A stretch of 64,000 nt of DNA from the NCBI GenBank assembly GCA_023150555.1, contig JAKLKQ010000020.1, positions 1 to 64,000 of the forward strand, written 5' to 3'. The first letter of the stretch is position 1; every line of letters starts with the position of its first letter. The translations under genes were made by a program, and so were the position numbers. Positions 45,016-62,660 of the stretch are shown one piece after another. The stretch comes from Planctomycetota bacterium (GTDB taxonomy: Bacteria > Planctomycetota > SZUA-567 > H5-PLA8). A model generated the notes under the pieces. The model was not told the DNA's origin. It worked only from the letters and a program-made list of their open reading frames with translations, and did no database searches.

Positions 45016-48000
45016 TCACGGGGCCTTTTCCGGCGGCTTCTCGCCGGGCGGCAGAGGCGCGTAGAACAGGAGTTCCTCGGCGCCGCCGCGGGGATAAAGG
45101 AGCAGGCGGCCGTCGGAGAGGACCTCGCCGGCGTTGAGTTCACCGGGCGCGACGAGCACGGGCTTCTCGCCGGCCGCGTCGATGCGCAGCACGCCCAGGT
45201 CGTTGATGAAAGCCAGGAAGCTTCCATCCGGCTCCGCGTGCAGGTTAAGTACCTGGCTGCGGCCTTGAAGCTCGATCTTTTTGGCGACCTTGTCGTCCTC
45301 GCCCACTTTAAAGAGGATCATACCGCGGCGGGTCCAGCGGGAGAACCACCAGGTGCCGTCCGTGAGTTTCACGCCCTGGTGGAGCCAGAGGTCCTCTTCT
45401 TTGGCCCACTCCGGAAGCGGGAGGGCCTCGGCCGCGTCGCCGGTGCCGCGGAAGTAGCGCAGGCCCTTTTCGGTTCCGATGAGCCATTCGTTGTCCTTCA
45501 ACTCGATCGTCATCCAGAACTTGTCGACGCCCTTGAATGCCAACGGTTTTCCCGGCTGTCCGTCTCGGCCGAAGAGAAGGTGGTTTGTGCCGTTTCCGCC
45601 GACCGCCTGCAGGCCGTTGGGAAGGCTCTGGATCCAGAATCCATCCATCCCATCGACCGCAACGGGCTCGCGAAACGTCCCGTCGGCATTGAAGCGGAAG
45701 AGATGGCTGCCGCGGCTGTTGTAGGTATAGAAACCCCCATCGTCGAGTGCGAAGATGGTGCGCGTCCCTTCGATCTCGCCGGGCACCAGCGGCAGCGGCG
45801 GGTAGCCGATGCGTTTGGCCATCTTCCCGTCCTGGTCGGCGGCGTAGGCGTTGGGGTTGTCGGTGTGGGACTGGACGATCCAGATTTCCTTGCCGGCGTG
45901 AATCAGATCCGACGGCGAATAGATCGCCTCGGCGTCCCAGGACCGCATGAGGCTCTTGTTGGAGTTGTAGCGCCAGAGCTGATGCGGCGGCCAGCGCATG
46001 TCGCTCTTTCCGGCGGCCCAGAAGCCGCCGTCTTCGTCCCACGCGACGACCCACGGCTGCAGGATGTCATGGCTGAACGCGATGTGGCGCTCGGGGTTCC
46101 GGCGGTCGTTCTTGTCGAGGATCAACAGTTCGGGACGGAAGCTGTTGGCGACGATCACGCGCCCCTTGGCGTCGACGTCCAGGCCCAGCGGATGAAAGTT
46201 CTCTCCGAGTTCGATCGCGCGCTCGAACTTGTTCTCCGGTGCGGGCGAGTACACGCGCACGCAGCGGTGTGCGTGGTCGGATACGTACAGCCGGTTCTCG
46301 CTGTCCACCGCCAGCCCGTGCGCGTACCAGAAGCTGGTCTTCAGCTCGCCGTTAGTGCGGGCGTTCTCGAGTTCCACCGCGCCGAGCGGCTTGAGCTGCG
46401 GATCGAAGCGCAGTACGCGGTAGTTCAGCAGGTCAGAGACGTACACGAAGCCCCTGGCGTCGGCGCGCACACAGGGCGTGACCCAAAGCTGTCCGTCCTC
46501 GCGGCCCCACGCTCCGGAGCTGTACAGCGGCTTGCCCTCGGCATCGAAGACGTGCAGTCGCCCTCCGTTGAGGTCGGCCATGACGGAGCGCCCGTCGGGC
46601 AGCTTCGCCATGCTGCCGGGGTAGCGGTAGCTGCGCGTGCCGTTCGAGGCCATGGTGTAGCGCTGTTTCACCTGCAGGTCCGGGCCCAGCCGCACCAGTT
46701 GCGCCGGATCGGCCGTCACCACCAGCAGATCTTTGCCCAGTGGAAGCAGGTCCGACGGGATTGCCAGCGAGACCGGCTGCAGGAGCCCTCCATCGAGCGC
46801 CTCGGTACAGCCGCCGCCTATCAGTTCGAAGAGCTTCGCGCGCCCGGCGTCGGCCACGAGCACGCGACCGCCGAAACGGCAGATGCGGGAGGGCTTGTTC
46901 AGGCCCATGGCTTCGTCCGCGAGCGTAGTCGTCCTTCCGTCCGGCGCGATGTGCAGGACGCGGGCGTTGAGCGTGTCGGCGGCCAGCACCGCGCCGTCGT
47001 CGGCGTAGCAGAGACCGAAGGGCGCGCGCAGGTCCTTCGCCAGTATCTTGGCTTCGACCGCCCCGGCCGGCGCGTCGTCGCGGAAGGTGACGATCTCCTC
47101 CTTGAGCGGCAGCGAACAGGCAACCGTGCCGTCGCGCCAGGCCAAACCGGCGGGGCGCGCGTCGAGTTTCCATTCGCGCTCGACGGCCCAGGTTTCGCCG
47201 AGCTTCATGCGCAGCACGCGGCGGTTGCCCGTGTCGGCGACGAGCAGTCGTCCGTCGGCGTCGGAGGCCAGACCCATGGGGCAGAAGAGCTGCTCCGTGC
47301 CGCCCCACTTGCCCAGGTACTTGAATGCGGCGTCGAAGTGCAGCAGGTGATTGGCGTCGGCAATCACCAGCGTGCCGTCCTTCAACGCAGTGGCGGCGTT
47401 GGGCCGGAAGAGGCGCATGCCCGTGTCAACCGTGATCGCCTTCTCGCGCTTGTAGGCCGGTGCGCTGGGGAAGGCGCTCTCGCGGCGCCTGCGGCGTGGC
47501 GGCTTGGTTGCGTCCTCCGCATTGGCCTCGGGGCCAGGCGCGGCTTCGGGTGGTGGCTTCAAAGTTTCGCGGTATCCGGCGCGCGCCTTTTCGAGTTCCT
47601 CGTCCTCGAAAGGCGCCTTCAACTGCTCGCCAGCCACTGTCCACGCATACGTCTTTCCTTCGTATGACACGCGGCAGGTCACGAAGCCCGGCGTCTCTGC
47701 GAGCGCGGGGAACTCGGCCGCCGCTGCGGATCCCACCGGCACCGCGCCCTTCCACTCGCCCAGGCGCACCGTGCGGCCGTTGCCTTTGGGCGTGACTTCG
47801 ATCTCGACTCGAGCCTCCTTAATGTTCTGTGCGGAAGCCAGGTTCGCGCGTGTGGACCTCTTGTCGCGTTCGAGGTGCAGCGCAATGTTCGCGTCGCCGG
47901 CGTCGATGCCGCGCAGGCCGCGCACGAGCGTCCATCGTTCGGACCAGGCGCGTTCCTTGCCCGGCGCCAGCGAACTGCGCTCGTCGTGCGTCGGGTTGGA

Positions 48001-48945
48001 CCCGCTGAAAAGTTCGCCCAGGTCGGCCGAGGCGTTGGGCCACGGCATCCAGAACTTGGTGCCGATGCTCTGCGCGGGATCGAAGGTGCGCAGCACGCCC
48101 TGTTCGCGTTCGTGGCAGTAGAAGCCCGCGAATCCGTCGGAGTGGGTGAGCGGGAAGAGGCCATTCGAGTTGTACCACTTTTTGAGGTAGCGCAGATCGC
48201 TCGTGTTTCGGAAGGGAAAGGGAATGATCATATTGCGGCGTACGTTGTGGCCTTCCTGGTGCGTGATCACGCGGTCGGTGGGCAGTGCGATTTCGGTGAA
48301 GGTCGAAGCCGGCACGTACCCGTCGACCCAGAGATCGTACGGCTGCGCGCGCTTGGTCGGGTTGGAGACGGTGAAGGTGAAGTCCAGCGCTGTGCTGCCG
48401 GGAGAGAGTCTTGCGCGCACGTCGCAGCGCAGGCCCGTCTCGTGGGGCTCCACGCACCATGCGTGGAAGACAGCTGCGCCGTCCTTCTCGCGCAGGACTT
48501 CGTGCTGCCACGGGCCGTGGTCCATCGGCGTGTGGCCAAAGTTCGGGAAGCCCCATTTCATCGAGCCCACGTGGACCATGTAGCCGTGGCCCTCGTCGCC
48601 GGACATCTGCTGGAAGATCGTCTTCTCGACGCGGTAGAGCGGGCTCGAACCGTCGTTCTTCCAGACGACGTCGTACAGGCGCGCACCGATCTCAGGCAAA
48701 AAGCGCATGCGAAGGAACTCGTTCTCGATCATGACGAGCTTGACCTCCTTGGGCGCCGTCTTAAAGGGGCGCTCGGTGTCTTTGCGCGGCGTGGGATAAC
48801 CCATGCAGCCGGGCAGCCAGACAAACAGCGACGCGTCGAGGTCCGGGGCCTCGATTTTGAGCGTGCCTTCGCCGATGGCGACATCCGCTGCGGGCGCGCA
48901 CCCGGCGAGGGTGCAGGCAAGAAGAAGATAAAGCGTGAAACGCAT
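45016..48945 (-). CDS. Giant lipoprotein with DUF5107-like and NHL propeller domains
   Basis: 1309 aa from the ATG at 48945, which has GAGG close upstream; an ATG at 48957 would add four residues. Lipobox LAGC lies in CTLAGCAP. Residues 60-330 look like DUF5107, an aldose-epimerase-like beta-sandwich (NEFLRMRFLPEIGARLYDVVW, VHVGSMKWGF). After an Arg/Pro linker (about 480-500) come two NHL-type propellers with repeating L-x-x-ADTGNRRVL and DLLNYRVLRFD units. DUF5107 is frequent with sugar-processing TPR proteins. Probably surface-exposed sugar or protein binder. It lies 60 bp after the DUF6785 operon on the same strand. Confidence 0.78.
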   Translation of the reverse strand: MRFTLYLLLACTLAGCAPAADVAIGEGTLKIEAPDLDASLFVWLPGCMGYPTPRKDTERPFKTAPKEVKLVMIENEFLRMRFLPEIGARLYDVVWKNDGSSPLYRVEKTIFQQMSGDEGHGYMVHVGSMKWGFPNFGHTPMDHGPWQHEVLREKDGAAVFHAWCVEPHETGLRCDVRARLSPGSTALDFTFTVSNPTKRAQPYDLWVDGYVPASTFTEIALPTDRVITHQEGHNVRRNMIIPFPFRNTSDLRYLKKWYNSNGLFPLTHSDGFAGFYCHEREQGVLRTFDPAQSIGTKFWMPWPNASADLGELFSGSNPTHDERSSLAPGKERAWSERWTLVRGLRGIDAGDANIALHLERDKRSTRANLASAQNIKEARVEIEVTPKGNGRTVRLGEWKGAVPVGSAAAAEFPALAETPGFVTCRVSYEGKTYAWTVAGEQLKAPFEDEELEKARAGYRETLKPPPEAAPGPEANAEDATKPPRRRRRESAFPSAPAYKREKAITVDTGMRLFRPNAATALKDGTLVIADANHLLHFDAAFKYLGKWGGTEQLFCPMGLASDADGRLLVADTGNRRVLRMKLGETWAVEREWKLDARPAGLAWRDGTVACSLPLKEEIVTFRDDAPAGAVEAKILAKDLRAPFGLCYADDGAVLAADTLNARVLHIAPDGRTTTLADEAMGLNKPSRICRFGGRVLVADAGRAKLFELIGGGCTEALDGGLLQPVSLAIPSDLLPLGKDLLVVTADPAQLVRLGPDLQVKQRYTMASNGTRSYRYPGSMAKLPDGRSVMADLNGGRLHVFDAEGKPLYSSGAWGREDGQLWVTPCVRADARGFVYVSDLLNYRVLRFDPQLKPLGAVELENARTNGELKTSFWYAHGLAVDSENRLYVSDHAHRCVRVYSPAPENKFERAIELGENFHPLGLDVDAKGRVIVANSFRPELLILDKNDRRNPERHIAFSHDILQPWVVAWDEDGGFWAAGKSDMRWPPHQLWRYNSNKSLMRSWDAEAIYSPSDLIHAGKEIWIVQSHTDNPNAYAADQDGKMAKRIGYPPLPLVPGEIEGTRTIFALDDGGFYTYNSRGSHLFRFNADGTFREPVAVDGMDGFWIQSLPNGLQAVGGNGTNHLLFGRDGQPGKPLAFKGVDKFWMTIELKDNEWLIGTEKGLRYFRGTGDAAEALPLPEWAKEEDLWLHQGVKLTDGTWWFSRWTRRGMILFKVGEDDKVAKKIELQGRSQVLNLHAEPDGSFLAFINDLGVLRIDAAGEKPVLVAPGELNAGEVLSDGRLLLYPRGGAEELLFYAPLPPGEKPPEKAP

Positions 48946-49005
48946 GGTGGACCTCATGCCTATAAGAGGAGCGAAGGTCGAAAGGCTCAGATTACCCTAC
49001 GATTT

Positions 49006-50985
49006 TCAGTATGGCAAACTGACCAGCGAATTGATGAGCGCCGCGGTGCTGGCGAAGAGGCCCAGGATCACACCCATGCCCATCGCCAGGCCGGCGACGA
49101 TCACGTAGCGGTACTTCTCGAACCATTCGTCGCCCTTCCAGCGCCGGAAACCCTGTGCCACCAGCCCGCCGATGAAAAGCGAGACCGCGAAAGGGAAGGG
49201 GAAGGCCATGCCTACCGCCACGCCGATCAGGCTTAATTCGAAGCGTTTGAAGAGCCGCCCCAGCCCGTACAGCGCGAGGAAGGCCAGAAACGCATAGAGC
49301 ATCCAGTCGACGCGGAAGACGTTGCGGATGATCTCCGCGCCGGCCTCGCCGCCGAACTGCGCGCCTTCGACGGTGGTGGACATCCAGAAGCACAGCTGCG
49401 TCGTCCACACCGGCAGGATCGTCGCCGCGTACGGGTAGGTGCTCGACGGGATCGGCGCGATCGACCAGAAGACCGACATGAAGAAGAGGTTCGCCGCCAT
49501 GCCCGCCAGCATGCCAAGCACCGCGGCCTTGATGTAGCTGCGCGGCTTGCAGCGGGTCATCTCGCAGACCTTGAAGTCCTCCACCCAGCCCGCGCTGCCC
49601 AGCGAGATCGGCCACGGCGCGAACCAGACGCCGGGCGACAGGTGCCGCCCCGTCTCGGCGCGGACCATGTCGTTGCTGGCGATGATCAGGCCCTCGCGCA
49701 CGTACGGCGGGTCGACGCGGAAGCCCGTGTCGCCCTTGGCGCGGATGTCGATCATCGAGAAGACGAACGACCAGATCAGCGCGAACGGCGCGATGAAATA
49801 CCACGGGAAGTCAGGGATCAGGAGGCGGAACAGCAGCACGGCGAAGACGATCGAGCCGAAGAAGAGGAACAGCAGCCAGCGGATCGAGACGGTGCGCTCG
49901 CCTTCGGTGGCCGTGCCTTCCTGTACAGCCCGACGCGTCTTGCTCAGGTTCGCGAACGTGCGGTACAGCGTCTTCGGCTGGAAGACCAGAGGGATCACCG
50001 CCGCAGCGAGCATGCCGCCGATGAAAACCGGCATCCAGACGAAGAGCTGCTGCAGCAGCGTCGAGCGGATCGACATGCCCGCCGCAAAGCGTTCGTGGAA
50101 GATCGGGTGGTACTTCGCGGCCCACGCGTTGCCGATCACCTGAATCGCGAAGCCGCCCAGCAGCATGCTCACGATCACCCGCATGCGCAGGATGAACCCG
50201 CCGGCGAAGGTCATCAGGTTCGTGCCGATGCCAATCGCCGGGCCGGGCAGCCACTGGTGGACCAGCGAATTGAAGTCCGCCCAGGGGATAGGCCAATCGA
50301 GGATCTTGCGGCCCAGCATTACTGGGAAATACACCACCGCGCCCCACACCGTCCCGACCATCCCGCTGAGCGTAAACGCGTGGCGAATGTCGCCGTCGCC
50401 GCGGGTCAGCGTCTCGCAGGCCGCCGCGGTGGGCTTGGCGAACGGGAAATCCAGCTTCTCGACCTTGATGAACATCTCGCGCCCGACGATGCCCAGCGAC
50501 AGGTCCGCCACGATGTGGAAGATCCACACCGCCGCGCTGACGCCCAGCGGCGCCAGCCACGCCGGATGCAGGAAGCTGCGCAGCCGCGAGACCTCCGCCG
50601 GCGGCGCCCACCACGACGGCGCCAGGTCCGTGAAGGGCGTGCCGTGCGCGTCCTTGAAGGTGTGCGCGACCTCCGCGACGCGGAAGTACGCCGGATGCAC
50701 TGCGTAGTTGTAGAAGAGCAGCTGTCCCGCGGCCATGCCGCTGATCGAATACACGATGAAGGCTTCGGCCGGTGAGAGCGGCTTGCGGCCCAGCCGCGCG
50801 AACTCGACCCACAGGATCAACGCGACGAAGCTGACCGCGCCGGTCAAACTCGTTCCCGCCACCAGCAGCAGGTAGATGTTCGCAGGCATCAGGATGAACG
50901 CGCCGTAGAGAATCACCATCCAGGTGCGGCGGGTGAGGCCCTCTTCCAGCGGGCCATCGGGCGCGATAGCCTGCGACAGGCTCAT
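49006..50985 (-). CDS. DUF6785/OPT-like membrane protein
   Basis: 659 aa with about 14 hydrophobic helices. KLDFPFAKPTAAACETL matches the P-F-P-x-x-x-A-type loop of oligopeptide (OPT) transporters and DUF6785 proteins. The start ATG overlaps the stop of the giant FtsX fusion (ATGA at 50982-50985) and has GAGGAGG. It likely carries peptides, siderophore-like chelates or another organic substrate using a proton or sodium gradient. Third gene of the coupled membrane operon. Confidence 0.75.
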   Translation of the reverse strand: MSLSQAIAPDGPLEEGLTRRTWMVILYGAFILMPANIYLLLVAGTSLTGAVSFVALILWVEFARLGRKPLSPAEAFIVYSISGMAAGQLLFYNYAVHPAYFRVAEVAHTFKDAHGTPFTDLAPSWWAPPAEVSRLRSFLHPAWLAPLGVSAAVWIFHIVADLSLGIVGREMFIKVEKLDFPFAKPTAAACETLTRGDGDIRHAFTLSGMVGTVWGAVVYFPVMLGRKILDWPIPWADFNSLVHQWLPGPAIGIGTNLMTFAGGFILRMRVIVSMLLGGFAIQVIGNAWAAKYHPIFHERFAAGMSIRSTLLQQLFVWMPVFIGGMLAAAVIPLVFQPKTLYRTFANLSKTRRAVQEGTATEGERTVSIRWLLFLFFGSIVFAVLLFRLLIPDFPWYFIAPFALIWSFVFSMIDIRAKGDTGFRVDPPYVREGLIIASNDMVRAETGRHLSPGVWFAPWPISLGSAGWVEDFKVCEMTRCKPRSYIKAAVLGMLAGMAANLFFMSVFWSIAPIPSSTYPYAATILPVWTTQLCFWMSTTVEGAQFGGEAGAEIIRNVFRVDWMLYAFLAFLALYGLGRLFKRFELSLIGVAVGMAFPFPFAVSLFIGGLVAQGFRRWKGDEWFEKYRYVIVAGLAMGMGVILGLFASTAALINSLVSLPY

Positions 50986-53900
50986 GCGGGCGCCTCCTCT
51001 CGCGGTGCGGTACCTTCAAGCGCCTGTTCGCCGTGTGCGACGTACTCGTTGACGGCGTTCTCGCTGAGGCTGCGCCAGATCAGCATCTGTTTGCGCAGGC
51101 CGTCGACGAAGGCGTGGTTGCTGTCGCGCCACAGGTCCTCGGGGCCCGAGAGCCGCCGTAGCTGCAGGTCGAAGTGGTAGCGCTCTTTGCCGGGGTCGTG
51201 GCGCGGCACCAGGCGCAGTTCGTGCACGAGGTTCTGCTCGAAGGGCGCCAGCCAAACGCGCCCGCGCAATTCGGGGTCGGGCCCTACGCGTGCGAGTTCC
51301 GGATCGATCTCCAGCGCGAACGCGCCGCTGCGCTCGCCGCGGTGGAAGCCCAGGAACTCGAGCAGGAACTGCAGCATCCCGGTGACCTCGCGTAAGTCCG
51401 ACGCGACGAATGGCAGGTGGATCGTCCAGCGGTCGCCTTCGGGCTTGGTGTCGATGCGCCAGATGCGTTCCAGCGAGGGGTTCACCAGGCGCGATGCGAT
51501 GCGCATGGGGTACAGCACCGAGAGCAGGCTGGCGCTCGTCGCCAGCACCGCCGACCAGATCACGACCTTGCCGAAGTAATTCGGATAAAAGTTCTCGGGC
51601 AGCCAGCCCGCGCGGCGGAAGACGTCGAGCAGGATGATGCCGAGGAAGTAGCCCAGGACCGACGCGATACCCGCGTACACCAGCGCTTCGGCCAGGAACA
51701 TCCCCGCGACGTGCCTCGGCGCCAGGCCCACCGACGAAAAGACGTGGATCTCGCGGCGGCGCTCGTAGACGTTGCCGATCATGATCGCCAGCAGCATCAG
51801 GAAGGAGACCAAGAACGGCAGCAGCAGAAGGCTGCCCGACTTCAGCGATACGCGCGCGAAAGCGCTGAGCAACTCGACGCGGTCCTGCGCCTCCGGGTCC
51901 CACGGTGGCGCAATGCTGCTCAGGAATACGTCCAAGTGCTCGTGGTCGGCGGCGATGGACTCGGCGATTGCCCGGATCGTGCGCCGCTCGGCATTGTAGG
52001 CAGCCAGCGCGCGCAGCGCATCCGCATCGCCCGCCGGCAGCGCCGCCAGGCGCTCGGCCTCCGGCAACTCCAGCGTGCCCTGCGCTGCCTGCAGTACGCG
52101 CTCGGTCGTCGTGCCCAGCGCGCCGGCCTGGGCCGTATCGAGATACGCGCGCATTTCCTTCGTGCGCGCGTCGATCTCGGCGTCCGTGGGCGAGTCGGGC
52201 ACAAGTACCACGCTGTAAGCAGGCAGTAGTGCGGCCTTCTCGACGCGCAGCAGCGCTTCGGGAATGAAAAGCGCTTCGCGGGCGAGCAGGTGGTCGGGGC
52301 TGCTACCGTCGATGACGTTGCGGTAGAAGGCGACCGGCGTGACTGCCTTGCCGTCCAGGTCCACCAGTTCCGCGTCGGTGACGGTCGACCGCAGCAGACC
52401 GATCAGTTCCAGATCCTCGCCGAAGACGTTGACGCGGTCGCCTACCTTCAGCCGTTGGGTTCGCGCGGTCTCCTCGGCCAGCAGGCACGCGCGCACGTCG
52501 CTTTCGTTGAAAAAGCGTCCGTCGGTGATGGCCCGGTCCAGTCGCGAGATCGACGCTTCCTGCGGGCCTACGGCGATGGCGCCCTGCAGCGAGAAGGCGC
52601 GCGGCGGCTGCGCGGGTTCGCCGTCCTTCGCGCGCGGATGGGCGAAGGCGTTAAGCACCGCCATGTAATACGGCGTGTAGTACCGCCGCACCGCGACGTG
52701 CGCGCGGCCTTCGAAGCGCCGCACGATCAGGTCGACGGTCGCCTCGTTCATGCCCTTGGTGTGGTCGCCGGCGTTCATCACCTGCACGCCGCGGTAGCGG
52801 GCCTTCGGAAGCAGCTGCGCCTCGCGGTAGAAGCTGGTGTCGGCGGCGGTGCTGGTCAGCAGCACAAGGCTGGTGACAAGAATGGTGATCGTCGCGAGCG
52901 TCAGGCTGGTGCGCAGCCTGCGGCGGCGCATGTTGTTGACGGCCAGCGACAGCGCCGCGCCCAGCACGCCCCACTTCTCGGCGCCGGCCGCGTGGCGGCG
53001 CTTGAACTTCGCGCCTGGCTCGAGGGCCATCGCCACGCCTCGCTGGGCGATAATGAACAGCGCCGGAAGCGTCATGATCACGATCACGAACGTCACCACG
53101 GTGACGAAGATGTTGCTGGCGAGGTGGAAGCCCGGGTGGAAGACGTACAACAGCCCCGTGAAGGCGAAGAAGACAAACGCTGCGAAGCCGAAGGTCCGCA
53201 GATGCGTCGGCTGCGGGAAGAGCAGGCGCTCGACGAGGTATCCGAAGGGTACGAGCAGGAGGAAGTAAAAGATCGTCGTGGAGACGACATCCAGCAGCAG
53301 GCGGAAGGCGCCGCGGTACGCCATGGCCTCGGCGGACCAGAAGAGTTCCCCGGCGGCCTCGGCTGCGGAGGATTTTCCTCTCTGCCGCAGCTCGGCGGCC
53401 TCCTCGCGATGCAGGTCGGCGCGAGCCTGGAAGAGGTTGGCCTCGGGACTCTTCACGTTCAGGCTCGCGTAATCCGCGAGGCGCTTCTCGGTCAACCGCG
53501 CCAGCTGCTCGCCGCCGAGTTTTGTCGTGCGCAGCAGCTTGCGGTCCTCGCCTTCGTACACGCGGAAACCCAGGTAGTCGGAGTCGGGCAGCAGCCGCGC
53601 GTCGATGGGCGCGCCGTGCGCGGGCGGCGCCGCATCGCCCGGGCGCACCTTGGCGTCGGCGTCGAGTTCCGCGAGGACGTGGGCCAGCGGCAGGCCATCT
53701 TTTTCGGCGCGCGCGGTCAGTTCGGCGCGGAGCTTGGGATCGTCGTTGAAGAGGGCGGGCTTCTTCTCCAGTGTCCCGGCCAGGATCTCGCAGCGCAGGC
53801 CGGGCTTGAGGAAGACCATGGCGGTGTTGCGGAACTGGATCCACGCGTAGCTGTCGGCTTCCGTGTGCGTGCCGACCTCGCGCACGTTCCGCACGGGCAG

Positions 53901-56249
53901 CCAGGGGTCTTCGCAGTCGTCCTGGGACATGCCGATGCCGCCCTGCCGTTTGTACTCGTTCTCGACGGGCTTGCTCCGGTTCACGCGGTCGCGGTCCACG
54001 AGGGAGAAAAGCGTCAACGCGCCGCAGGGGAAGATCGGCACCTGCAGCTGGATGCGCGGCGCGGTCAGCGCGCGGTCGAGGAAGTGGAACTCCGCGTCGC
54101 CATGAAAGCCCTGGTCGAAGGCGTGCGTGATGCGCCCTGCGCCGTCGAGGGTGAAGGCCAGCGCGTCGTACGCGACGTCGATGCTGGCGGAATACACGTT
54201 GCGGAAGGTGGCCGTGCCGTCGGGCCCGGCCTCGGCAACGTAGGCCGTCGCGAAGGCGTCCATCTGCCGGTGGATGAAGCGCGACGGCGAGAGCGGGCGG
54301 GGCCAATACGCGTAGCTGCGCCCGCGCAGGAAGCGCGTGTCGGAGGGCACCAGCACGACGAAGGTGCTGCCGTGGTCGGGCGGCTTCTTGTCGTACCAGA
54401 CGATCTCGGGATTCCAGCGCACGACCTGCACGTCTATGCGGTTGTAGCCGCCGCTGCCGCGGTACGGCTGCGCGGCGTGCGCGGGGAACAGGTTTGGTTC
54501 CAGGTCTGCCAGCCCGCCCAGCAGCGCGGCGGAAAGTTCCAACTGCGGGCGCAGGTTCTCCGCCTGAGGCATCCACGGGTCGATGGTATCGATGCAGGAG
54601 AAGTGGCGCTGGCGGTGGGCGTTGCACGTTTTCAGCGCGATAGAGAGCCCTCCGATCTGCGTCAACATCTGGTTCGCGGTGGGATGGCTAACGGCATCGC
54701 TGTTCGGCGGCCAGTACTCAAGCGGCGCGAGCCACAGCTGCCACTGGTTGCCGGGCATCGTCGGGCGCCCGCTGTAGAAGGCGTACTTCGAGAGCCGGTC
54801 GCCGCGGTCCTGCAGCGGGCGGTTGCTGAGGTCCTCGAGCTGGTCGACCCAGCCGGGCTCGCGGCGGTCGACGGTGAAGAGCATCTTCTTGAGGAATCCG
54901 AAGTGCGCGCCGTGCACGGCGTCGGCAGCGGATTCGTCGGTGAGGATCAGCGCGTCGGACTCGGGGTTCAGGTCCACGCCGACGGCCATCGCGATACGGT
55001 CGCCCACGGCATCCTTGATCGCGTCGCAATAGGCCCGCGCGGGGGCCTGCTCCTGCCAGTGCCCGCTCACGAGCACGAAGCGCAGGGAGAAGGCCGGCGG
55101 GTGTTCCGCGAAGTACTCGAAGAGCGCCAGCCACGCCGCGGGCCCGAAGGCCTCCTGCCCGCCGAAGCTCAGCGCGGGGGCGATCGACTGCGCGTCGGCG
55201 TGCGCCATGACCAGGAATTCGCGCGCTCTCTGCGTGCCCGGTACGAAGGCCTCCAGTACGGGCGCTTGGACGGTGCGCAGTGTCGCGTTCACGCGCAGCG
55301 TGCCGCCGCGTCCGGCGCGCGCGGCTTCGCGCACCGCGTCGGTCTCGTCCTTCACGTACGCGCGGGGGAGGTTCAGCGGCACGAGCTTGAGGAACTTCTC
55401 GCTGGCCTGCCGCGTCGTCTCGCCCAGGCCGTCGTCCGAGGCCAGGAAGACGGCGCCCACGGCGCCGCGTTCGGCGGCTTTCAGCCAGGCGCGCCCGCTG
55501 CCGAACTCGAAGACCGCGATGCACCCTTCGACGGTGCGCGCGTTGAAGTCCTCGTCTTCGCCCTCGCCGAGGTACACCAACGGCGCGCGCAGGCCCTCCT
55601 TGGGCGTGGCGCAGGGCTGGATCAGGTTGGGCTGCAGGGCGTAGGCCATGACGTTCGTGGTTGTGCCGTCCGCGCCGGCGAACTCGAAGGCGCTGCCTTC
55701 GTCCAGCGCCACGGCGACGGGAAAGTTCGTGCGCCGAAGCGCGCGTTCGGGCGGCGGATCGGCCAGGGCTGCGGCGTCGCCGTCTTGCGTCTGCGTCCAG
55801 CCGCGCGCGGCAAACACTTCCGCGGCGTAGGCGAAGCATTTCTCCAGGCCGGGCGTGCCGGTTTGCCGCGGGCCCAGCCCAGCGATACGCTTTGCGTGCT
55901 CGATCGTGCGGTCGAAGGCCGGCCCGCCGCCTTCGGTCAGGCGCGCGCGGGCGGTGGCCTCGTCGAGTTTCGGGATTCCGTAGTCTGAGACGCGCCCGGG
56001 TGAGGCCAGCCAGCCCAGTGCGAGAATCTCCACGATGGCCGCGACCAGGGCCAGGCGCATCAACCGCCCGCTTTCGCGTTGCCGCCCTGCGGCGAAGATG
56101 GCCGTCGGCACGACGGCCGCCGCCGCGGCCGCGCCCGCCGCCAGAAGCGCGCCCGCCGGGGCGACGCCGTTGGCCATCGCGCCGAAGAGCGTTGCGGCGC
56201 CGAGGTACAGCGGCGCCAGCGCGACGTGCAGGAGCTTTGGCTTCGCCAT
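50982..56249 (-). CDS. PA/M28 peptidase-like domain fused to FtsX-type permease
   Basis: 1755 aa from the ATG at 56249 (GGAGG about 10 bases upstream, 14 bp after the preceding stop). Open reading continues much further upstream, but there it is a shadow of the DUF6785 gene. Three TMs lie in the first 90 residues. A PA-like insert (about 225-270, VEGCIAVFEFGSGRAW) and an M28-like domain (about 340-480) follow. The latter keeps H-x-D (MAHADAQ), but the loop after it (SFGGQEAFGPAAW) lacks an obvious Asp/Glu pair, so peptidase activity is doubtful. TMs at about 970-1060 come next, then two FtsX-type blocks (about 1110 and 1480 on) with YERRREIHVFSSVGLAPRHV. No ATPase gene is near. Confidence 0.8.
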   Translation of the reverse strand: MAKPKLLHVALAPLYLGAATLFGAMANGVAPAGALLAAGAAAAAAVVPTAIFAAGRQRESGRLMRLALVAAIVEILALGWLASPGRVSDYGIPKLDEATARARLTEGGGPAFDRTIEHAKRIAGLGPRQTGTPGLEKCFAYAAEVFAARGWTQTQDGDAAALADPPPERALRRTNFPVAVALDEGSAFEFAGADGTTTNVMAYALQPNLIQPCATPKEGLRAPLVYLGEGEDEDFNARTVEGCIAVFEFGSGRAWLKAAERGAVGAVFLASDDGLGETTRQASEKFLKLVPLNLPRAYVKDETDAVREAARAGRGGTLRVNATLRTVQAPVLEAFVPGTQRAREFLVMAHADAQSIAPALSFGGQEAFGPAAWLALFEYFAEHPPAFSLRFVLVSGHWQEQAPARAYCDAIKDAVGDRIAMAVGVDLNPESDALILTDESAADAVHGAHFGFLKKMLFTVDRREPGWVDQLEDLSNRPLQDRGDRLSKYAFYSGRPTMPGNQWQLWLAPLEYWPPNSDAVSHPTANQMLTQIGGLSIALKTCNAHRQRHFSCIDTIDPWMPQAENLRPQLELSAALLGGLADLEPNLFPAHAAQPYRGSGGYNRIDVQVVRWNPEIVWYDKKPPDHGSTFVVLVPSDTRFLRGRSYAYWPRPLSPSRFIHRQMDAFATAYVAEAGPDGTATFRNVYSASIDVAYDALAFTLDGAGRITHAFDQGFHGDAEFHFLDRALTAPRIQLQVPIFPCGALTLFSLVDRDRVNRSKPVENEYKRQGGIGMSQDDCEDPWLPVRNVREVGTHTEADSYAWIQFRNTAMVFLKPGLRCEILAGTLEKKPALFNDDPKLRAELTARAEKDGLPLAHVLAELDADAKVRPGDAAPPAHGAPIDARLLPDSDYLGFRVYEGEDRKLLRTTKLGGEQLARLTEKRLADYASLNVKSPEANLFQARADLHREEAAELRQRGKSSAAEAAGELFWSAEAMAYRGAFRLLLDVVSTTIFYFLLLVPFGYLVERLLFPQPTHLRTFGFAAFVFFAFTGLLYVFHPGFHLASNIFVTVVTFVIVIMTLPALFIIAQRGVAMALEPGAKFKRRHAAGAEKWGVLGAALSLAVNNMRRRRLRTSLTLATITILVTSLVLLTSTAADTSFYREAQLLPKARYRGVQVMNAGDHTKGMNEATVDLIVRRFEGRAHVAVRRYYTPYYMAVLNAFAHPRAKDGEPAQPPRAFSLQGAIAVGPQEASISRLDRAITDGRFFNESDVRACLLAEETARTQRLKVGDRVNVFGEDLELIGLLRSTVTDAELVDLDGKAVTPVAFYRNVIDGSSPDHLLAREALFIPEALLRVEKAALLPAYSVVLVPDSPTDAEIDARTKEMRAYLDTAQAGALGTTTERVLQAAQGTLELPEAERLAALPAGDADALRALAAYNAERRTIRAIAESIAADHEHLDVFLSSIAPPWDPEAQDRVELLSAFARVSLKSGSLLLLPFLVSFLMLLAIMIGNVYERRREIHVFSSVGLAPRHVAGMFLAEALVYAGIASVLGYFLGIILLDVFRRAGWLPENFYPNYFGKVVIWSAVLATSASLLSVLYPMRIASRLVNPSLERIWRIDTKPEGDRWTIHLPFVASDLREVTGMLQFLLEFLGFHRGERSGAFALEIDPELARVGPDPELRGRVWLAPFEQNLVHELRLVPRHDPGKERYHFDLQLRRLSGPEDLWRDSNHAFVDGLRKQMLIWRSLSENAVNEYVAHGEQALEGTAPREEAPA

Positions 56250-56263
56250 CCGGCGGGCCTCCG

Positions 56264-58693
56264 CTACAGGGCCAGGCCGCGTGCGAGCAGCACGGCCGAG
56301 AGGAACAGGTAGAGCATCATCCCCATGACGATGCCCATCAGCGCGTAGACCAGCCATGGCATGACCTTCTCCTGGAAGGCGCGCACGCCGTACCAGCGGA
56401 AGATGACGCTCTTGGCCAGCCACGCCAGCAGCCAGGTGAACCAGCAGTCGTCGGTGCCCAGCGCGGTGTGGCTGCTCCAGGCCGCGGCGATGAACATGCC
56501 CATGGGCTCGATGGGGAAGCGCGCGTAGCGCCGCCGCAGCGCGAAGCAGACGATGTAGATCCCCGCGCCCAGCAGTACCCATTCGACGCCGTAGGTCGTG
56601 AACTGGCCCGGGCGCATCTTCACGTAGTAGTTGTAGGCCTTGTTCGTGGTGAGGAAGTAATTGCCCCATGCGCCGGCCATGGGCATGTTGTCGTAGCCGA
56701 TGTAATGCACGGCGACCAGGAACAGCGGCATGCCGATGGCCAGCGCCAGCACCGTGGCGATCGCGACGCCCTTGAAGATGTCCCGCACCTTCGCCTTGGT
56801 GCTGTCGGCCAGCGCGAAGGCGTCGAGGATCTGGCCGCTGGAGCCCAGGCCCTGGCTGTACCCGCCGAAGGTCTCCATCTGGTACAGGCTCTGGTAGCTC
56901 AGCACGTTGTCGGGCACGGCGATGGCGCTGCCCGGCGCCATGGGCACGGTGTGGGTCAGGCCGAAGGTGTGCCAGTTGAACCAGACGCCGGTGTGGAGGA
57001 TGGCGTTGAAGTCGAAGTACTGGAAGCCGCCGTAGGCGCGCATGCGGATGTGGTGGAAGTTGAAGACGAAAATCATCGCCAGCGCGTAGACCAGGACGCC
57101 CGCGCGGGAGAGTGCCGGGTAGCCGGTCTCGCCTTCGCCGAAGAAGACGAGCCCCACGAAGAACGCGAAGCTGAGGAAGAAGCCGAAGGCCAGTTCGCGC
57201 GGGCCCAGGGCGTCGGTCTCCTTCCGCACCGCGCGCGACCACAGGCCCCGCACCAGGTCTCGGATCTCGCGCCGGTTGAACCACAGCGCCGAGACGGTGA
57301 TGCCCACGTAGCCGCCGTAGCGGAATACGTAATTGAGCACGCTCATGCCGAACGAGACGCCCAGCGTGTTCAGCGCGGCCTTGAGCCCGAAGTAGAAAAG
57401 CACGAACGTCAGCACGGTCGTGAAAAGCAGGTCCAGCGGGAAGAGCAGGATGAACAGCAGCACCAGCGGCAGCAGCGTCAGCTTGAAGTCCACGCCGGAA
57501 ATCAGGTTGAGCCCGGTCAGGTCCAGGTCGAGAAGCGGCGCCGACGGCGCCATCGACGGCGCGTCGGTCTCGCTGATCGTCGTCAGGCCCTTTACGCACA
57601 GCAATAACCCCAGCAGGAAGGCTACGGCCAGGGCGGGGCGCGGGAAGCTGACCTGCTTCTTGGCGTCGTCCTGCGGCGCGCCGGGGGTGGGGAAGAGCGC
57701 GTGCTCGGTCAGGCGCGCGTACGGGAAGGGCAGGCGTTCGCGTTCGATCCAACTTGCGCGGAAGACCATCAGCCCGAAGACGATCGCCAGGTGGAAGGCC
57801 AGCATCGTGAAGAACCAGTAGGCCAGCGGCTTGGCCCAGGCGCCCCACGGCACGGCGACCTTGCCCTTGCGGAAGCTACGCAGCGCGTCGGCGTTGCGGA
57901 TGCACTGCGGCCCGCGTTCGGCCAGGTCCGCGGCCGTCTCGGCGACCCACACCAGGTAGGCCTTCTGGCGCGCGTCGAGTTCAACGCCCGGCGAAGCCAG
58001 GGCCTCCTGCGCGTCGCGGGCGGCCTGCGCGGCGCCTTCGATCTCGCGCAGCGCGGCGAGCACGTCCTGGCTGGGGTCGAGTGCCTCGGCCACCGCGCGC
58101 GATTCGGCCAGCGCGGCCTCGCAGCGCGCGCGCGCGGCCTCGATGCGCCCCGGCGCCTCGGCGGGCGGCGGCGGATCCTGCGGCGCGCGGCGCGGGGTGC
58201 CGTCCTCCTCCGGCGGCAGTTCCAGGTACGGGCAGCGCCCGTCGGGCGGTTCGACGCGCGGCACCGGCCCGATGTGCGGGTTGGGCGCCCAAAAGTCCGG
58301 CACCAGGGCGCGCTCCCCGGCCTCGACTTTGCTCTTGTTGGTGAAGTGGTTGACGATCGCCGATTCCAGCGACAGGCGTCCCATCGCGGCCGTCGGGATG
58401 CCCGCCAGCAGCAGCGCGAAGATGAAGGTGTACTCCGCGCCCGTCGGACGGCGGTGCTCGGGCAGGAAGTCGGCGAAGAGTTTCAGCGCGAAGAGCGTGA
58501 AGATCGCGCCGAAGCCGCCGACCAGCAGCAGGTGCTGGTCGCGCAGGGCTTCGTGGGGTTCGGCGAAGGCGAGCAGGACGATCCACAGCAGCAGGAGCGG
58601 CAGGCCCAGCGCCAGGCTGCGCTTCGTCAGCGCCGGGGCCTGCAGCGGGCCGCCGGATTCGGCGGCGGACGGGTGGGCGTCGGGTTCGGCCAT
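56264..58693 (-). CDS. DUF6785-family polytopic membrane protein with coiled insert
   Basis: 809 aa. Four TMs lie in the first 130 residues. A soluble Pro/Ala/Glu-rich insert with coiled-coil-like helices (about 140-275) follows, then at least ten TMs. W-I-E-R-E-R-L-P-F-P-Y-A-R-L-T is the DUF6785 signature at about 320. The last third (MRAYGGFQYFDFNAILH, then GTDDCWFTWLLAWLAK) corresponds to the DUF6784-type end. A distant OPT-transporter relation is likely. First gene of the operon, 14 bp before the M28/FtsX fusion. Function of DUF6785 is unknown. Confidence 0.78.
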   Translation of the reverse strand: MAEPDAHPSAAESGGPLQAPALTKRSLALGLPLLLLWIVLLAFAEPHEALRDQHLLLVGGFGAIFTLFALKLFADFLPEHRRPTGAEYTFIFALLLAGIPTAAMGRLSLESAIVNHFTNKSKVEAGERALVPDFWAPNPHIGPVPRVEPPDGRCPYLELPPEEDGTPRRAPQDPPPPAEAPGRIEAARARCEAALAESRAVAEALDPSQDVLAALREIEGAAQAARDAQEALASPGVELDARQKAYLVWVAETAADLAERGPQCIRNADALRSFRKGKVAVPWGAWAKPLAYWFFTMLAFHLAIVFGLMVFRASWIERERLPFPYARLTEHALFPTPGAPQDDAKKQVSFPRPALAVAFLLGLLLCVKGLTTISETDAPSMAPSAPLLDLDLTGLNLISGVDFKLTLLPLVLLFILLFPLDLLFTTVLTFVLFYFGLKAALNTLGVSFGMSVLNYVFRYGGYVGITVSALWFNRREIRDLVRGLWSRAVRKETDALGPRELAFGFFLSFAFFVGLVFFGEGETGYPALSRAGVLVYALAMIFVFNFHHIRMRAYGGFQYFDFNAILHTGVWFNWHTFGLTHTVPMAPGSAIAVPDNVLSYQSLYQMETFGGYSQGLGSSGQILDAFALADSTKAKVRDIFKGVAIATVLALAIGMPLFLVAVHYIGYDNMPMAGAWGNYFLTTNKAYNYYVKMRPGQFTTYGVEWVLLGAGIYIVCFALRRRYARFPIEPMGMFIAAAWSSHTALGTDDCWFTWLLAWLAKSVIFRWYGVRAFQEKVMPWLVYALMGIVMGMMLYLFLSAVLLARGLAL

Positions 58694-58928
58694 GAGGCTT
58701 CGCGGCGTTCTCCGGGTCCCGGGCCGCCACGCGCGGCGCCGCCTCCTTTTAAAGGGGCGTTACGGGACGGTTCATAAAGCTTAGAAGGCACCCTATGTTG
58801 ACCGTTTGCACAGGGTGAGCAACCGCATTTCCCGGCCCGCCGGAGGGCGACGCGGCCCCCGCCTTGCATGGGGCGGCGTGTCGGGGATAGGATGGCCTCC
58901 GGTGCGAGGTGCTCTTGCGTTGAACGCG
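58694..58928. other. Divergent intergenic region
   Basis: Between the minus-strand DUF6785 operon and the plus-strand TPR-transglutaminase gene. It holds an A+T-rich patch (CCTTTTAAAGG at about 58745-58755, TTCATAAAGCTTAG at about 58771-58784) and TTGACC at 58798-58803. These are plausible promoter parts for either direction, but no full -35/-10 pair is convincing. Confidence 0.4.
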
Positions 58929-61900
58929 ATGCTCCTTCTTGCGCAGGCGGCGGAGACGGAGGCGGTGGCCCCGGATGGCGGCGTACCGCGCCCGCTGCTG
59001 GGCGTGCTGGTGCTGCTTGCCGCGGCGGCGGCGTGGGTCTGCGCCCGGGCCGCCCGGAACCCGCTCGCTAACGCGCGCTGCTTCCACGGGCTGGCGCTGG
59101 TGCTTGGTGCGGCGGCGCTGGCGCTGCCGGTCTATATCGCGATCGGCGGAAGCGGGGGGCTGGCGGCCGCGGCGGCGTCGGCCGGCGCGCTGGCGCTGGT
59201 CGGCGCGGTGGTCGCGGTGCTGGGCCTGAGCGAGGCCGCGCAGGTGAAGACGTACGTCCGCGGGCGCGCCGCCGCCGTGGCCGCGCTGGCGCTGACGGCG
59301 GCGCTGTTCGGGACCCTCGGTTACGCCTGGCAGAGCGGCAGCGAACCCGCCGTGGCCTTGGCTCCGTTGCCGCCGCCTTCCGAGCTCGCACCGGCACCGC
59401 ATGCGCCGCCCGCGCCCGTCGAACCCGCCGTACCGGCGGCGCCGACGCCCGCACCACCGGTCGAAGCCGCCCAGCCGGAGGGCGAGACGGTACCGGTCTA
59501 CGATTACAGACAGGTGCGTGAGATCTCGAAGCGCTTCGGCCACACGCTTCGTTACCTCGAAGACAAGGACTGGAAGATTTGGAAGAACCTCGCGTCCGAT
59601 CTGCCCGAGGCCGAGTTGGGGCTGCTGGCCGGCGATACCGCGGCGTTCATCGTCGTGCCGGTGTGGATGCGCGAAGCCGACCTGCCAATGGACGCCGTGG
59701 CGGCCGGCCTGCTGGACGTGCTCGAGATTGACTATCCGAGCCCGAGGGTGCATGCGGAACCCATGCGCAGGATGGGCGACACCGAGATTCAGGAACTCAC
59801 GTTCGGACGCCAAAAAGCGGACGAGGGCTGGCTTTATCGCTTCCGCGTGTACCGCCGCGGCGCCTTCGCCTGGCTGGTGGGCGGGTGGTGGGAACCGGAA
59901 TCCGACGTGAGCGCGAAGCAGGTCGCCGAGTTGCTCGATGGATTCGCGCTGTCGGAGGATCTGCCCGAAGCGCCGGACCTGGCCAAGGCGAAGCCGGGCG
60001 AACAGGACCGCCACCGCGGCTTCTTCAACGTGGTGGGCCTGTACTACTACGACAAGCGCCAGTACGGGAAGGCGCTGGACTTCTTTCGCGCCGGCTTCGA
60101 GACCGGGCGCGCCGACGCGGCGATACTCGGAAACGTGGCCGAGACCTTCAAGCAGCTCAAGCGCGCCGAAGAGGGCCTTGAGTACCTGGAGGCGCACACG
60201 TCGAAGTTCCCCGGCGACCACGGCCTGGCGGTGCGGCGCGCCGAGTTCCTGATGCAACTGGGCCGCACGGCGCGGGCGCTGGACGCCTACGCGCAGGTCT
60301 TCGGCGGGGGCTGGGTGGACGACGCGGCCTTCGCGGACCTCGTGCGCGCGCTCAACCGAGCCGGGCGCATGGAGGACGCGGTCCGCTGGCTGGACATCTA
60401 CGCCAAGCGCAGCAACACCGCCGGCGTGCAGCTGCTGCGTGCCGAGACCCTGCGCGCGCTGCAGAAGGACGACGAGGCCGCCGGGGTGCTGGAGAAGCTG
60501 CTGGCCGCCGAACCTCGCAACGCGGGCGCGGTCTTCACGCTCATCGACCTGCACGCCGACAACGAGCGCCACCGCGAGGCCCTGGAGTTGTGCACCAAGG
60601 CTATCGGCAACAGCCTGGCCAGCGCGGACCTCTATTACGCCAAGGGCGACGCCGAGTGCGGCCTGAAGTGGTACCGCGACGCGAAGGCGTCGTTCGAGGA
60701 AGCGCTGCGCCGAAGCCCCAACGACGAGGAAATCCAGGCGTACCTAGCCTACGTCAACGGGCTGCTGGGCGAAGGCGCCAACACCGCGATCAAGGCGCCC
60801 ATCCCCGAAGTGCCGCTGCCCGTGGAACTCGCGACGAATCCCGATCCCGCCGCGCACGCCGCGTACCTGAAGGACGCCGGCGCCTACTACCTGCTGCGTG
60901 CCACCGGCGTCGCGTTGACCCCCGGCGAGGCCCTGCGCACCACCGAGTACCTGAAGGCGAAGGTCGTCCAGGCGCGCAGCCTGGAGGCCTTCAGCACCTT
61001 CCAGTTCGCTTTCGACCCGCTGGGCGAAGCCATCTTCGTCAACCGCCTGCGCGTCCTCGACGGCGACGGGAAACTGGTCAGCGAGGGCCGCGTCGAGGCC
61101 TATTACGTGCTCGACCATCCCGCCCAGGAGATGGCGACCAACGACAAGCTGCTGACGGTGCCCGTGCCGGGCCTGCAGACGGGCTACACGGTGGAGCTGG
61201 TGGTCACGCGCCGGGAGTTCGCGCCCTGCGAGCGCCTGCCGTTCGCGCGCCGGGTCCTTGCGCACGCCACCCCGGTGCTCGCGATGGCCTACTGGATCCA
61301 GGGGGACCTCGCCAACGTCAAGACGGGCGAACTGCGCCTGCCCGTACCCGTCGTGCGCGACGGATTGAAGCTGTGGCGCGTGGACGCGCCCGAGGTCTAC
61401 CGCTGGGAGCCGCTGCAGGACGAGGCCGAGGAGTTCCTGCCCATGCTCTTTGCCGGCGACGCGCGCGACGAATGGGCCGCGCAGGGCCGCGAGCACCTGG
61501 ACGAGATGAAGGAGAAACTCGTCCTCGACGAAAATACGCGCGCGATGGCCGCCGCCGCGCTGAAGGGCATCGTAGGTCGGCCGGAAAAGATCCGCGCGGC
61601 GGTGAAGTTCATCCAGGACAACCTGACCTACCGCGCGATCGAGTTCGGCGAGCGCGCGCGCATCCCCAACGACACCGCGCGGATCATGAAGGACCGCTAC
61701 GGCGACTGCAAGGACCACGCGCTGCTGCTGCACCTGATCTTGAAGGACGCCGGGATCGCGTCGCACCTTGCGCTGGTCAGCACCGACACGCCCGTTGCCG
61801 CCGACTTCCCTTCGCTGGACCAGTTCGACCACATGATCGTCTGCGTGCCGGACGGCATCGCCGGCGGCGGAAAGGGCCCGGCCTTCATCGACCCCACCGA

Positions 61901-62660
61901 CCACGACGTGAACCCGCTCGACGGCGCGCCGGTGGACCTGGACGGCGGAAAGGCCCTGGTGCTCGATCCCGCGAACCCGCGCCTGGAAACGATCCCCGCG
62001 TGCGCGGAAGCGGAGATGGACGTGAAGATCAGGCGCGACTGCCGGCCCGATCCGGCCGGGGGCCTGCGCGTGGCGGAGACGATTGTCTTCTCCGGCGCGA
62101 GCGCTGTGGACATGCGCGGCTTCCTGCGCGGGCGCGACGCCGAGGGCGTGAAGAACGCGCTGAAGGAGGACCTGGCGTACGCACGCGCGGACGTGGAGGT
62201 GTCGGAGGCGAAAGTCGAGCGGTTGGACGACAGTGCCGCGCCGGTGGAAGTGGCACTCGAGTACCGCGTCAAGGACGCCGCGTGGACGATGGAGGAGCAG
62301 TGGGTGGCCGTGGCGCCGGTGCTGTGGGAGCGCCTCTACGCGTCGGCGGAAGCCTCGGCCGAACGCCGCACGCCCTTCCGCCGCCGCAGGGCGCTGACCC
62401 TCCAGAGCGTCACGACGATCCTGCCGCCCGAAGGCTACGCGCTGGCCGCGAAGGACTTGGGCGGTGCGGGCGACCGCAAACCTTTCGTATCGTGGGCGCT
62501 GAAGGCCGCGCCCGAAGGCGCCGGCGTGACCTTCGACTACCGCCTGCGCCTGGAGCCCGGGCGCTATGGCAAGGAGCGCTACGGCGAATACAAAGCGGCA
62601 CTCGACGCGGCCGCCGAAAAACTCAACGCGCGCCTGCCTTGGAAAAAGGCCGCGAAGTAG
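58929..62660 (+). CDS. TPR-transglutaminase-like membrane protein
   Basis: 1243 aa from the ATG at 58929; GTG at 58902 or 58878 in the same frame are possible, as no RBS is decisive. Up to four TMs lie in the first 140 residues, then a Pro/Ala-rich linker to about 200. TPR-type helices run about 360-620 (for example YYYDKRQYGKALDFFRAGFETG and ALRRSPNDEEIQAYLAYVNG). A DUF3857-like sandwich follows, then a transglutaminase core with Cys at about 926 (RYGDCKDHALLL), His in FDHMIV and Asp in FIDPTDHD. The triad is present. It may modify or cleave proteins outside the membrane; many such proteins are secreted hydrolases. Confidence 0.82.
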   Translation: MLLLAQAAETEAVAPDGGVPRPLLGVLVLLAAAAAWVCARAARNPLANARCFHGLALVLGAAALALPVYIAIGGSGGLAAAAASAGALALVGAVVAVLGLSEAAQVKTYVRGRAAAVAALALTAALFGTLGYAWQSGSEPAVALAPLPPPSELAPAPHAPPAPVEPAVPAAPTPAPPVEAAQPEGETVPVYDYRQVREISKRFGHTLRYLEDKDWKIWKNLASDLPEAELGLLAGDTAAFIVVPVWMREADLPMDAVAAGLLDVLEIDYPSPRVHAEPMRRMGDTEIQELTFGRQKADEGWLYRFRVYRRGAFAWLVGGWWEPESDVSAKQVAELLDGFALSEDLPEAPDLAKAKPGEQDRHRGFFNVVGLYYYDKRQYGKALDFFRAGFETGRADAAILGNVAETFKQLKRAEEGLEYLEAHTSKFPGDHGLAVRRAEFLMQLGRTARALDAYAQVFGGGWVDDAAFADLVRALNRAGRMEDAVRWLDIYAKRSNTAGVQLLRAETLRALQKDDEAAGVLEKLLAAEPRNAGAVFTLIDLHADNERHREALELCTKAIGNSLASADLYYAKGDAECGLKWYRDAKASFEEALRRSPNDEEIQAYLAYVNGLLGEGANTAIKAPIPEVPLPVELATNPDPAAHAAYLKDAGAYYLLRATGVALTPGEALRTTEYLKAKVVQARSLEAFSTFQFAFDPLGEAIFVNRLRVLDGDGKLVSEGRVEAYYVLDHPAQEMATNDKLLTVPVPGLQTGYTVELVVTRREFAPCERLPFARRVLAHATPVLAMAYWIQGDLANVKTGELRLPVPVVRDGLKLWRVDAPEVYRWEPLQDEAEEFLPMLFAGDARDEWAAQGREHLDEMKEKLVLDENTRAMAAAALKGIVGRPEKIRAAVKFIQDNLTYRAIEFGERARIPNDTARIMKDRYGDCKDHALLLHLILKDAGIASHLALVSTDTPVAADFPSLDQFDHMIVCVPDGIAGGGKGPAFIDPTDHDVNPLDGAPVDLDGGKALVLDPANPRLETIPACAEAEMDVKIRRDCRPDPAGGLRVAETIVFSGASAVDMRGFLRGRDAEGVKNALKEDLAYARADVEVSEAKVERLDDSAAPVEVALEYRVKDAAWTMEEQWVAVAPVLWERLYASAEASAERRTPFRRRRALTLQSVTTILPPEGYALAAKDLGGAGDRKPFVSWALKAAPEGAGVTFDYRLRLEPGRYGKERYGEYKAALDAAAEKLNARLPWKKAAK

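Follow-up and report, generated by a model that had tools for sequence, protein, structure and literature searches.

A probable type VII ABC cassette with a pseudo-peptidase permease and OPT-superfamily partners, found without an adjacent motor gene in a planctomycete

Related systems

Models for type VII ABC systems come from a handful of cases, namely LolCDE, MacAB-TolC, FtsEX, BceAB and YbbAP-TesA. OPT proteins, in turn, are known as stand-alone proton-coupled carriers, and the transferrin receptor TfR1 is a dead M28 protein that is used for binding. In the Escherichia coli system YbbAP-TesA, a type VII ABC transporter has a hydrolase partner, with a 2:1:1 stoichiometry (PMC12646458). In group II ECF systems, one motor is combined with substrate-specific membrane proteins that are encoded elsewhere (PMC7755397, PMC4820897).

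The locus analyzed here consists of three genes, designated A, B and C, in a 64,000-nucleotide stretch of a planctomycete genome (the window). By analogy, its closest precedent is YbbAP-TesA, which shares with it an FtsX/MacB-type permease, a LolD-like ATPase and coupling, outside the membrane, to a module with a hydrolase fold. However, TesA is an active, separate protein of another fold, whereas the M28/PA domain of B is inactive and belongs to the permease chain itself. YbbP is a duplicated FtsX protein, while B combines a single FtsX module with an unrelated three-helix block and is likely to pair with a short FtsX permease, b. YbbAP-TesA also lacks OPT partners. LolCDE and MacB have in common with the cassette the fold seen in B's C-terminal half and a LolD-type ATPase, but the cassette shows no partners of the lipoprotein or efflux-pump type, and it adds both a giant pseudo-peptidase head and the proteins A and C. 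The transferrin receptor and glutamate carboxypeptidase II have the same PA-inserted M28 fold; unlike in those proteins, an ABC permease of bacteria and archaea carries it here as its head. From the OPT family, two divergent members travel here with an ABC motor. Group II ECF systems, despite other folds and another ATPase type, may offer a parallel to a set of scattered DUF6785 genes described below, for which motor sharing is hypothesized from the genomic pattern. No published description of the cassette or of DUF6785 was found in the open-access literature, nor any paper there in which PqqD is connected to FtsX-like permeases, or M28 to LolD and OPT. The most probable reading is that A-B-C supplies the membrane components of a conserved type VII ABC machine, with A and C as its partners from the OPT superfamily.

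Organization of the locus

The three genes form a tight operon on the minus strand. Gene A (58693-56264) encodes an 809-aa polytopic protein with DUF6785 and DUF6784. It is followed after 14 nt by gene B (56249-50982), which encodes a 1755-aa fusion of PA/M28-like domains with a type VII (FtsX) permease and starts at an ATG at 56249 that is preceded by GGAGG. Gene C (50985-49006) encodes a 659-aa polytopic protein that matches Pfam OPT. The stop codon of B and the start codon of C overlap in an ATGA (50982..50985, minus strand) that can be read directly in the sequence. A coupled operon had been proposed in a sequence-only reading of the window, and the overlap and the gene order A, B, C bear it out. 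The same reading placed no ATPase in the operon, in agreement with the window gene survey, in which no ATPase gene was seen adjoining A-B-C.

All three genes are intact, and their GC3 of 0.89-0.94 gives a clear coding signal. For each of them, dN is lower than dS against the orthologues at both sister-genus loci (L042 in genome G005 and L043 in genome G001; the window genome is G000), as expected under purifying selection. Between the window and L042, the dN/dS pairs are 0.43/0.73 for A, 0.35/0.85 for B and 0.17/0.56 for C.

On either side of the operon are long genes. At 45016-48957 on the minus strand, 48 nt downstream of C, is a gene whose 1313-aa product contains DUF5107 as well as NHL repeats. 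In the window it is possibly co-transcribed with C, but it was left out as a part of the cassette because L042 has no such gene adjoining C. At 58806-62660 on the plus strand, divergent from gene A, is a gene for a 1284-aa TPR/DUF3857/transglutaminase-like membrane protein.

Domain structure of protein B

Protein B is matched by Pfam MacB_PCD (PF12704) and FtsX (PF02687). Its two halves were modeled separately with AlphaFold from a 52-row alignment, giving mean pLDDT values of 85.0 (N-terminal) and 88.8 (C-terminal). All features described here are on the minus strand. The protein begins with three hydrophobic helices (residues 6-81, 56007..56234; hydropathy and model), whereas most relatives have one as judged by hydropathy. 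A PA-inserted M28-like domain follows (residues ~97-590, 54480..55961; Foldseek matches 2ek8, 3iib, 6hc6 and 1de4). For the N-terminal half as a whole, Foldseek returns PA-inserted M28 proteins (2ek8 with E 1.9e-18; 3iib with a target TM-score of 0.63) as well as the transferrin receptor and glutamate carboxypeptidase II, and so confirms the PA and M28-like assignment that had been made from the letters. With several domains in each half, B receives low composite TM-scores.

The C-terminal half resembles MacB (5gko, E 1e-9), LolC/LolE (E ~1e-6), LolCDE, HrtBA and YbbP (9ge6, E 4e-6). It contains TM1 and the start of a MacB-like extracytoplasmic domain (residues ~1114-1311, 52317..52910; MacB_PCD E 8e-9 and model), then FtsX TM2-4 with the conserved coupling helix YERRREIHVFSSVGLAP (residues ~1475-1587, 51489..51827; FtsX E 5e-13). 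Within the coupling-helix motif, R1497, E1500, G1508 and P1511 are invariant in 52 sequences. These MacB_PCD and FtsX parts together (residues ~1114-1587) are the single detectable FtsX module. The two FtsX blocks of the sequence-only reading are thus reduced to one: a three-helix membrane block at residues ~960-1067 (53049..53372), recognized by hydropathy and in the model, has no detectable FtsX similarity by hhalign against the last FtsX block (probability 1.1%). By hydropathy, members of the family mostly have one helix, an ectodomain, three helices, one helix, the MacB-like domain and then three to four helices, a topology that may parallel a doubled FtsX unit. With regard to a dimeric or duplicated FtsX core, B has one module, and the short FtsX gene b is the candidate for its partner.

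The former M28 active site lies in a strip at B residues 350-400 (55050..55202), for which alignment columns were counted in 52 relatives. In B, the catalytic Glu pair is replaced by a His and an aromatic residue. In the relatives, the Glu-Glu pair is kept in 0/52, with His in its place in 44 of the 52 and the next residue usually aromatic. Eight sequences retain the first His and five the bridging Asp, and the last His is lost throughout. Two other Asp residues mostly persist, that of the HxD motif in 50/52 sequences and that of the final motif in 48/52. This check of the metal ligands bears out the view that the M28-like domain is degraded, and the loss of the Glu pair and the last His in every sequence led to the rejection of an active M28 peptidase. 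Since the loss is common to 52 relatives, it represents a conserved non-catalytic form and not decay within one genome. Judged by these columns, the M28 domain of B is a family-wide pseudo-peptidase, and it is probably a binding module.

Proteins A and C

The sequence-only reading described both proteins flanking B as DUF6785/OPT-like. For A, this is correct as to DUF6785 (PF20581, E 7e-26, 91.2 bits against a cut-off of 25), with an additional match to DUF6784 (PF20580, E 3e-7), and a Pfam search gave no direct PF03169 match for A. C, on the other hand, matches Pfam OPT (PF03169, E 4e-17, 62.5 bits against a Pfam cut-off of 25.8) and not DUF6785; just 4/15 C homologues match PF03169. Yet A and C are homologous at the profile level (probability 99.3%, E 2.7e-20, 531 columns), and both therefore belong to the OPT superfamily. 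The orthologues in L042 and L043 are 52-54% identical for A and 78-79% identical for C. NCBIfam assigns no family name above its cut-off to A, B or C. A PDB sequence search with P0003 found no solved relative, and one with the A9 profile gave a single insignificant match (E 0.53).

Additional DUF6785 genes are scattered through other genomes of the same planctomycete family, with 7-12 per genome in G001, G003, G005 and G006 (L169-L187). These are mostly lone genes, with three in tandem in L183, and a comparison of neighbors found no common operon around them. The scattered genes of the window's planctomycete family form one clade, except for one row from another family.

Identity of the ATPase

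At the sister-genus loci L042 and L043, a LolD-type ATPase gene (E) and a short FtsX gene (b) are located directly upstream of A-B-C, and L045 also has a dedicated adjacent ATPase. In the window genome, the ATPase gene at C113:12383-13159 encodes a protein that is 84% identical to the ATPase linked in the sister genus. It has an intact Walker A motif and LSGGQ signature, and its gene overlaps a 219-aa FtsX gene (b) by 4 nt. A tree of 72 ATPases groups the ones whose genes adjoin B on its strand into a single clade (support 100/99); the archaeal B-strand ATPase of L124 lies outside it, as do several unrelated ABC proteins that are large or encoded on the opposite strand. Of the window genome's own ATPases that the tree includes, only three fall inside this cassette clade, namely the C113 protein and a tandem pair on C111, and the C113 protein is the sister of the linked ATPases of L042 and L043 (100/99). 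On sequence grounds, the C113 gene is the true orthologue of the linked ATPase; together with its clade membership and the invariant coupling helix, this means that the A-B-C locus is not motorless. It looks so because E and b are on another contig.

In the sequence-only reading, the missing gene was attributed either to use of an ATPase encoded elsewhere, such as the LolD at 21250, or to a loss of ATP use. The first suggestion is supported in its general form by the C113 orthologue, which is in the same clade as the linked ATPases, but the partner named for it is not the right one. The gene at 21250 shares a contig with B and has intact motifs, as would suit a partner; however, it falls outside the cassette clade and is 44% identical to the linked orthologue, compared with 84% for C113. 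It also has a permease of its own: at 21250-25241 on the plus strand, the LolD-type ATPase gene has a 4-nt overlap with the gene for a 1097-aa permease that carries two FtsX modules. This pair is a separate type VII system, and it is most improbable that the 21250 LolD, or a general LolD, serves the B permease.

The second suggestion, that B is an ATPase-free permease which has lost ATP use, would fit an A-B-C operon without an ATPase gene. Nevertheless, the coupling helix is invariant, adjacent ATPases accompany L042, L043 and L045, and the orthologous ATPase is kept in the window genome and in every genome with a window-type B: the five genomes with the latter (G000, G001, G005, G010 and G059) are the same five that have a window-type ATPase (at least 391 bits). 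A dedicated adjacent ATPase at orthologous loci, which the sequence-only reading itself had named as evidence against it, is present at 40/93 tallied loci. Loss of ATP use is accordingly very hard to credit.

The window genome has a second, paralogous system at G000:C113:56000-64100 (L009), in which a 2010-aa M28-FtsX protein (B2) is followed by a 666-aa C-type protein (C2), likewise with no adjacent ATPase. The tandem ATPase pair within the cassette clade is located at C111:15.5-17.1 kb. In genomes of the family with the second type of B, a tandem ATPase pair occurs instead of the window-type ATPase; the window genome has both systems, and the C111 pair would be the one to serve B2.

Distribution and cassette composition

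Co-occurrence was assessed in 60 relatives, with thresholds of E < 1e-20 for B, E < 1e-50 for C, scores above the cut-off for DUF6785 and at least 261 bits for the clade ATPase (next best 222). B is found in 16/60 genomes and C in the same 16, adjacent to B where the contig allows. DUF6785 is present in 15 of these 16, and the clade ATPase in 14; both are missing from all 44 B-negative genomes. Both B-positive genomes that lack the clade ATPase are represented by assemblies that are incomplete (86% and 61%). Fisher tests with B give 7e-15 for C, 3e-13 for DUF6785 and 7e-12 for the ATPase, for relatives that are non-independent and cut-offs that were set post hoc.

These data bear on a different model, in which B, b and E are an extracting or signaling machine like YbbAP-TesA or FtsEX, while A and C act on their own as secondary transporters and have only its operon and regulation in common with it. 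The type VII systems studied so far move no substrate through a central pore (PMC12646458), lone DUF6785 genes occur beside unrelated genes, and some loci have A alone or C alone adjoining B, all of which would be consistent with such an arrangement. However, the restriction of C to B-positive genomes, the position of both C genes of the window genome next to a B gene, and the absence of DUF6785 from B-negative genomes argue against it, and we consider it unlikely.

The cassette extends well beyond the planctomycetes. A scan of 84,980 species genomes yielded 336 confirmed stretches, and 80 of these were retained. Relatives of B occur in about ten bacterial phyla (Planctomycetota, Armatimonadota, Abditibacteriota, Latescibacterota, Poribacteria, Gemmatimonadota, Desulfobacterota, Omnitrophota, Desantisbacteria and Zipacnadia) and, among archaea, in Thermoproteota, Bathyarchaeota and Brockarchaeota. 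The co-occurrence of the three genes elsewhere, on which the sequence-only reading depended, is thus confirmed by the neighborhood survey in both bacteria and archaea. In the tally of 93 loci, in which A- or C-type genes were counted on the same strand within 9 kb, 81 have an A/C neighbor, 45 have two such neighbors and 30 have both E and b. Among the 40 loci with at least 6 kb on both flanks, the corresponding numbers are 36, 26 and 18, with an ATPase at 22. The 18/40 well-flanked loci without an ATPase within 9 kb, a count of linked genes only, are mainly from Armatimonadota, Latescibacterota and some archaea. The usual order in Desulfobacterota is b-E-B-A-C.

Two further genes recur: X, which encodes a protein of ~300 aa with no family, in 18 loci, and D, which is PqqD-like (PF05402), in 17. 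The X protein appears to consist of a W...P.W.....G.L domain repeated in tandem, and its gene adjoins the PqqD-like gene in bacteria and an archaeon (L046, L057, L089, L096, L101, L106, L113, L119, L156, L157, L149 and L144). A single 528-aa protein of the window genome (C99:3000-4586, L163) is a fusion of X with D, which supports a link between them; X-type ORFs of similar length (~450-570 aa) are present in G003, G005 and G006. Beside Desulfobacterota cassettes, large ABC exporter-like proteins (780-895 aa; ABC_membrane and ABC_tran in L135) recur, as does a cyclic-nucleotide-binding protein (loci with such neighbors: L103, L108, L114, L115, L117, L120, L121 and L135).

Proposed mechanism and substrate

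In the type VII machine proposed here, the FtsX module of B and the short permease b would be the docking sites for two copies of the dedicated LolD-type ATPase. ATP-driven motion would then be passed to the large extracytoplasmic head, composed of the MacB-like domain and the PA/M28-like pseudo-peptidase, which may bind a ligand without cutting it. A and C would work with this motor, probably as the substrate path or as a substrate-binding part. Sequence evidence stands behind the gene content, the family-wide loss of catalytic residues from M28, the identification of the unlinked ATPase with its short permease, and both the phyletic and the physical linkage among A, B, C and E; the assembly of a complex, its stoichiometry, the transport direction and the substrate are what we infer.

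The sequence-only reading suggested a machine that handles a peptide or a glycan, and clues to the substrate come from gene context. Desulfobacterota cassettes are flanked by genes for glycosyltransferases (GT28-C and GT4), a DUF2334-like protein (weak match) and a histidine phosphatase. Among the scattered DUF6785 genes, that of L174 adjoins genes for a DeoR regulator, a xylose-isomerase-like enzyme and an aldolase-dehydrogenase, and others are found beside GH123 (L172), LacI and AXE1 (L182) and a fucosidase (L177). The context leans, weakly, toward a sugar or glycan-containing substrate.

PqqD and OPT point weakly in another direction, toward a peptide. It may be that a peptide such as a modified ribosomal peptide is moved by the OPT-type proteins, bound in the cytosol by the PqqD-like protein and outside by the pseudo-M28 head. 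The OPT-type C and OPT-superfamily A, the PqqD-like gene in the 17 loci with PF05402 matches and the derivation of the head from a peptidase are compatible with this model. However, no radical SAM or other peptide-modifying gene was found among the recurrent neighbor clusters, and some lone DUF6785 genes are located beside the sugar genes of L174, L172, L182 and L177. A peptide substrate is therefore somewhat unlikely.

A broader and tentative possibility is that the cassette represents a hybrid class of transporter, in which OPT-superfamily proteins are powered by a type VII ABC motor that bears a pseudo-peptidase head. In some planctomycetes, one such motor might serve up to about 12 DUF6785 proteins encoded elsewhere, some of them beside sugar-use genes, as in group II ECF systems.

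Significance

The cassette adds to the type VII systems a form, spread over many bacterial phyla and archaea, in which an inactive peptidase is built into the permease and two OPT-type proteins are partners. The locus also illustrates that a motor gene which appears to be missing can simply be unlinked. If the proposed machine is correct, it would tie ATP-driven mechanotransmission to carriers that have been thought of as stand-alone, it would provide a functional setting for DUF6785 and DUF6784, and it would identify ATPase partners that make the system testable.
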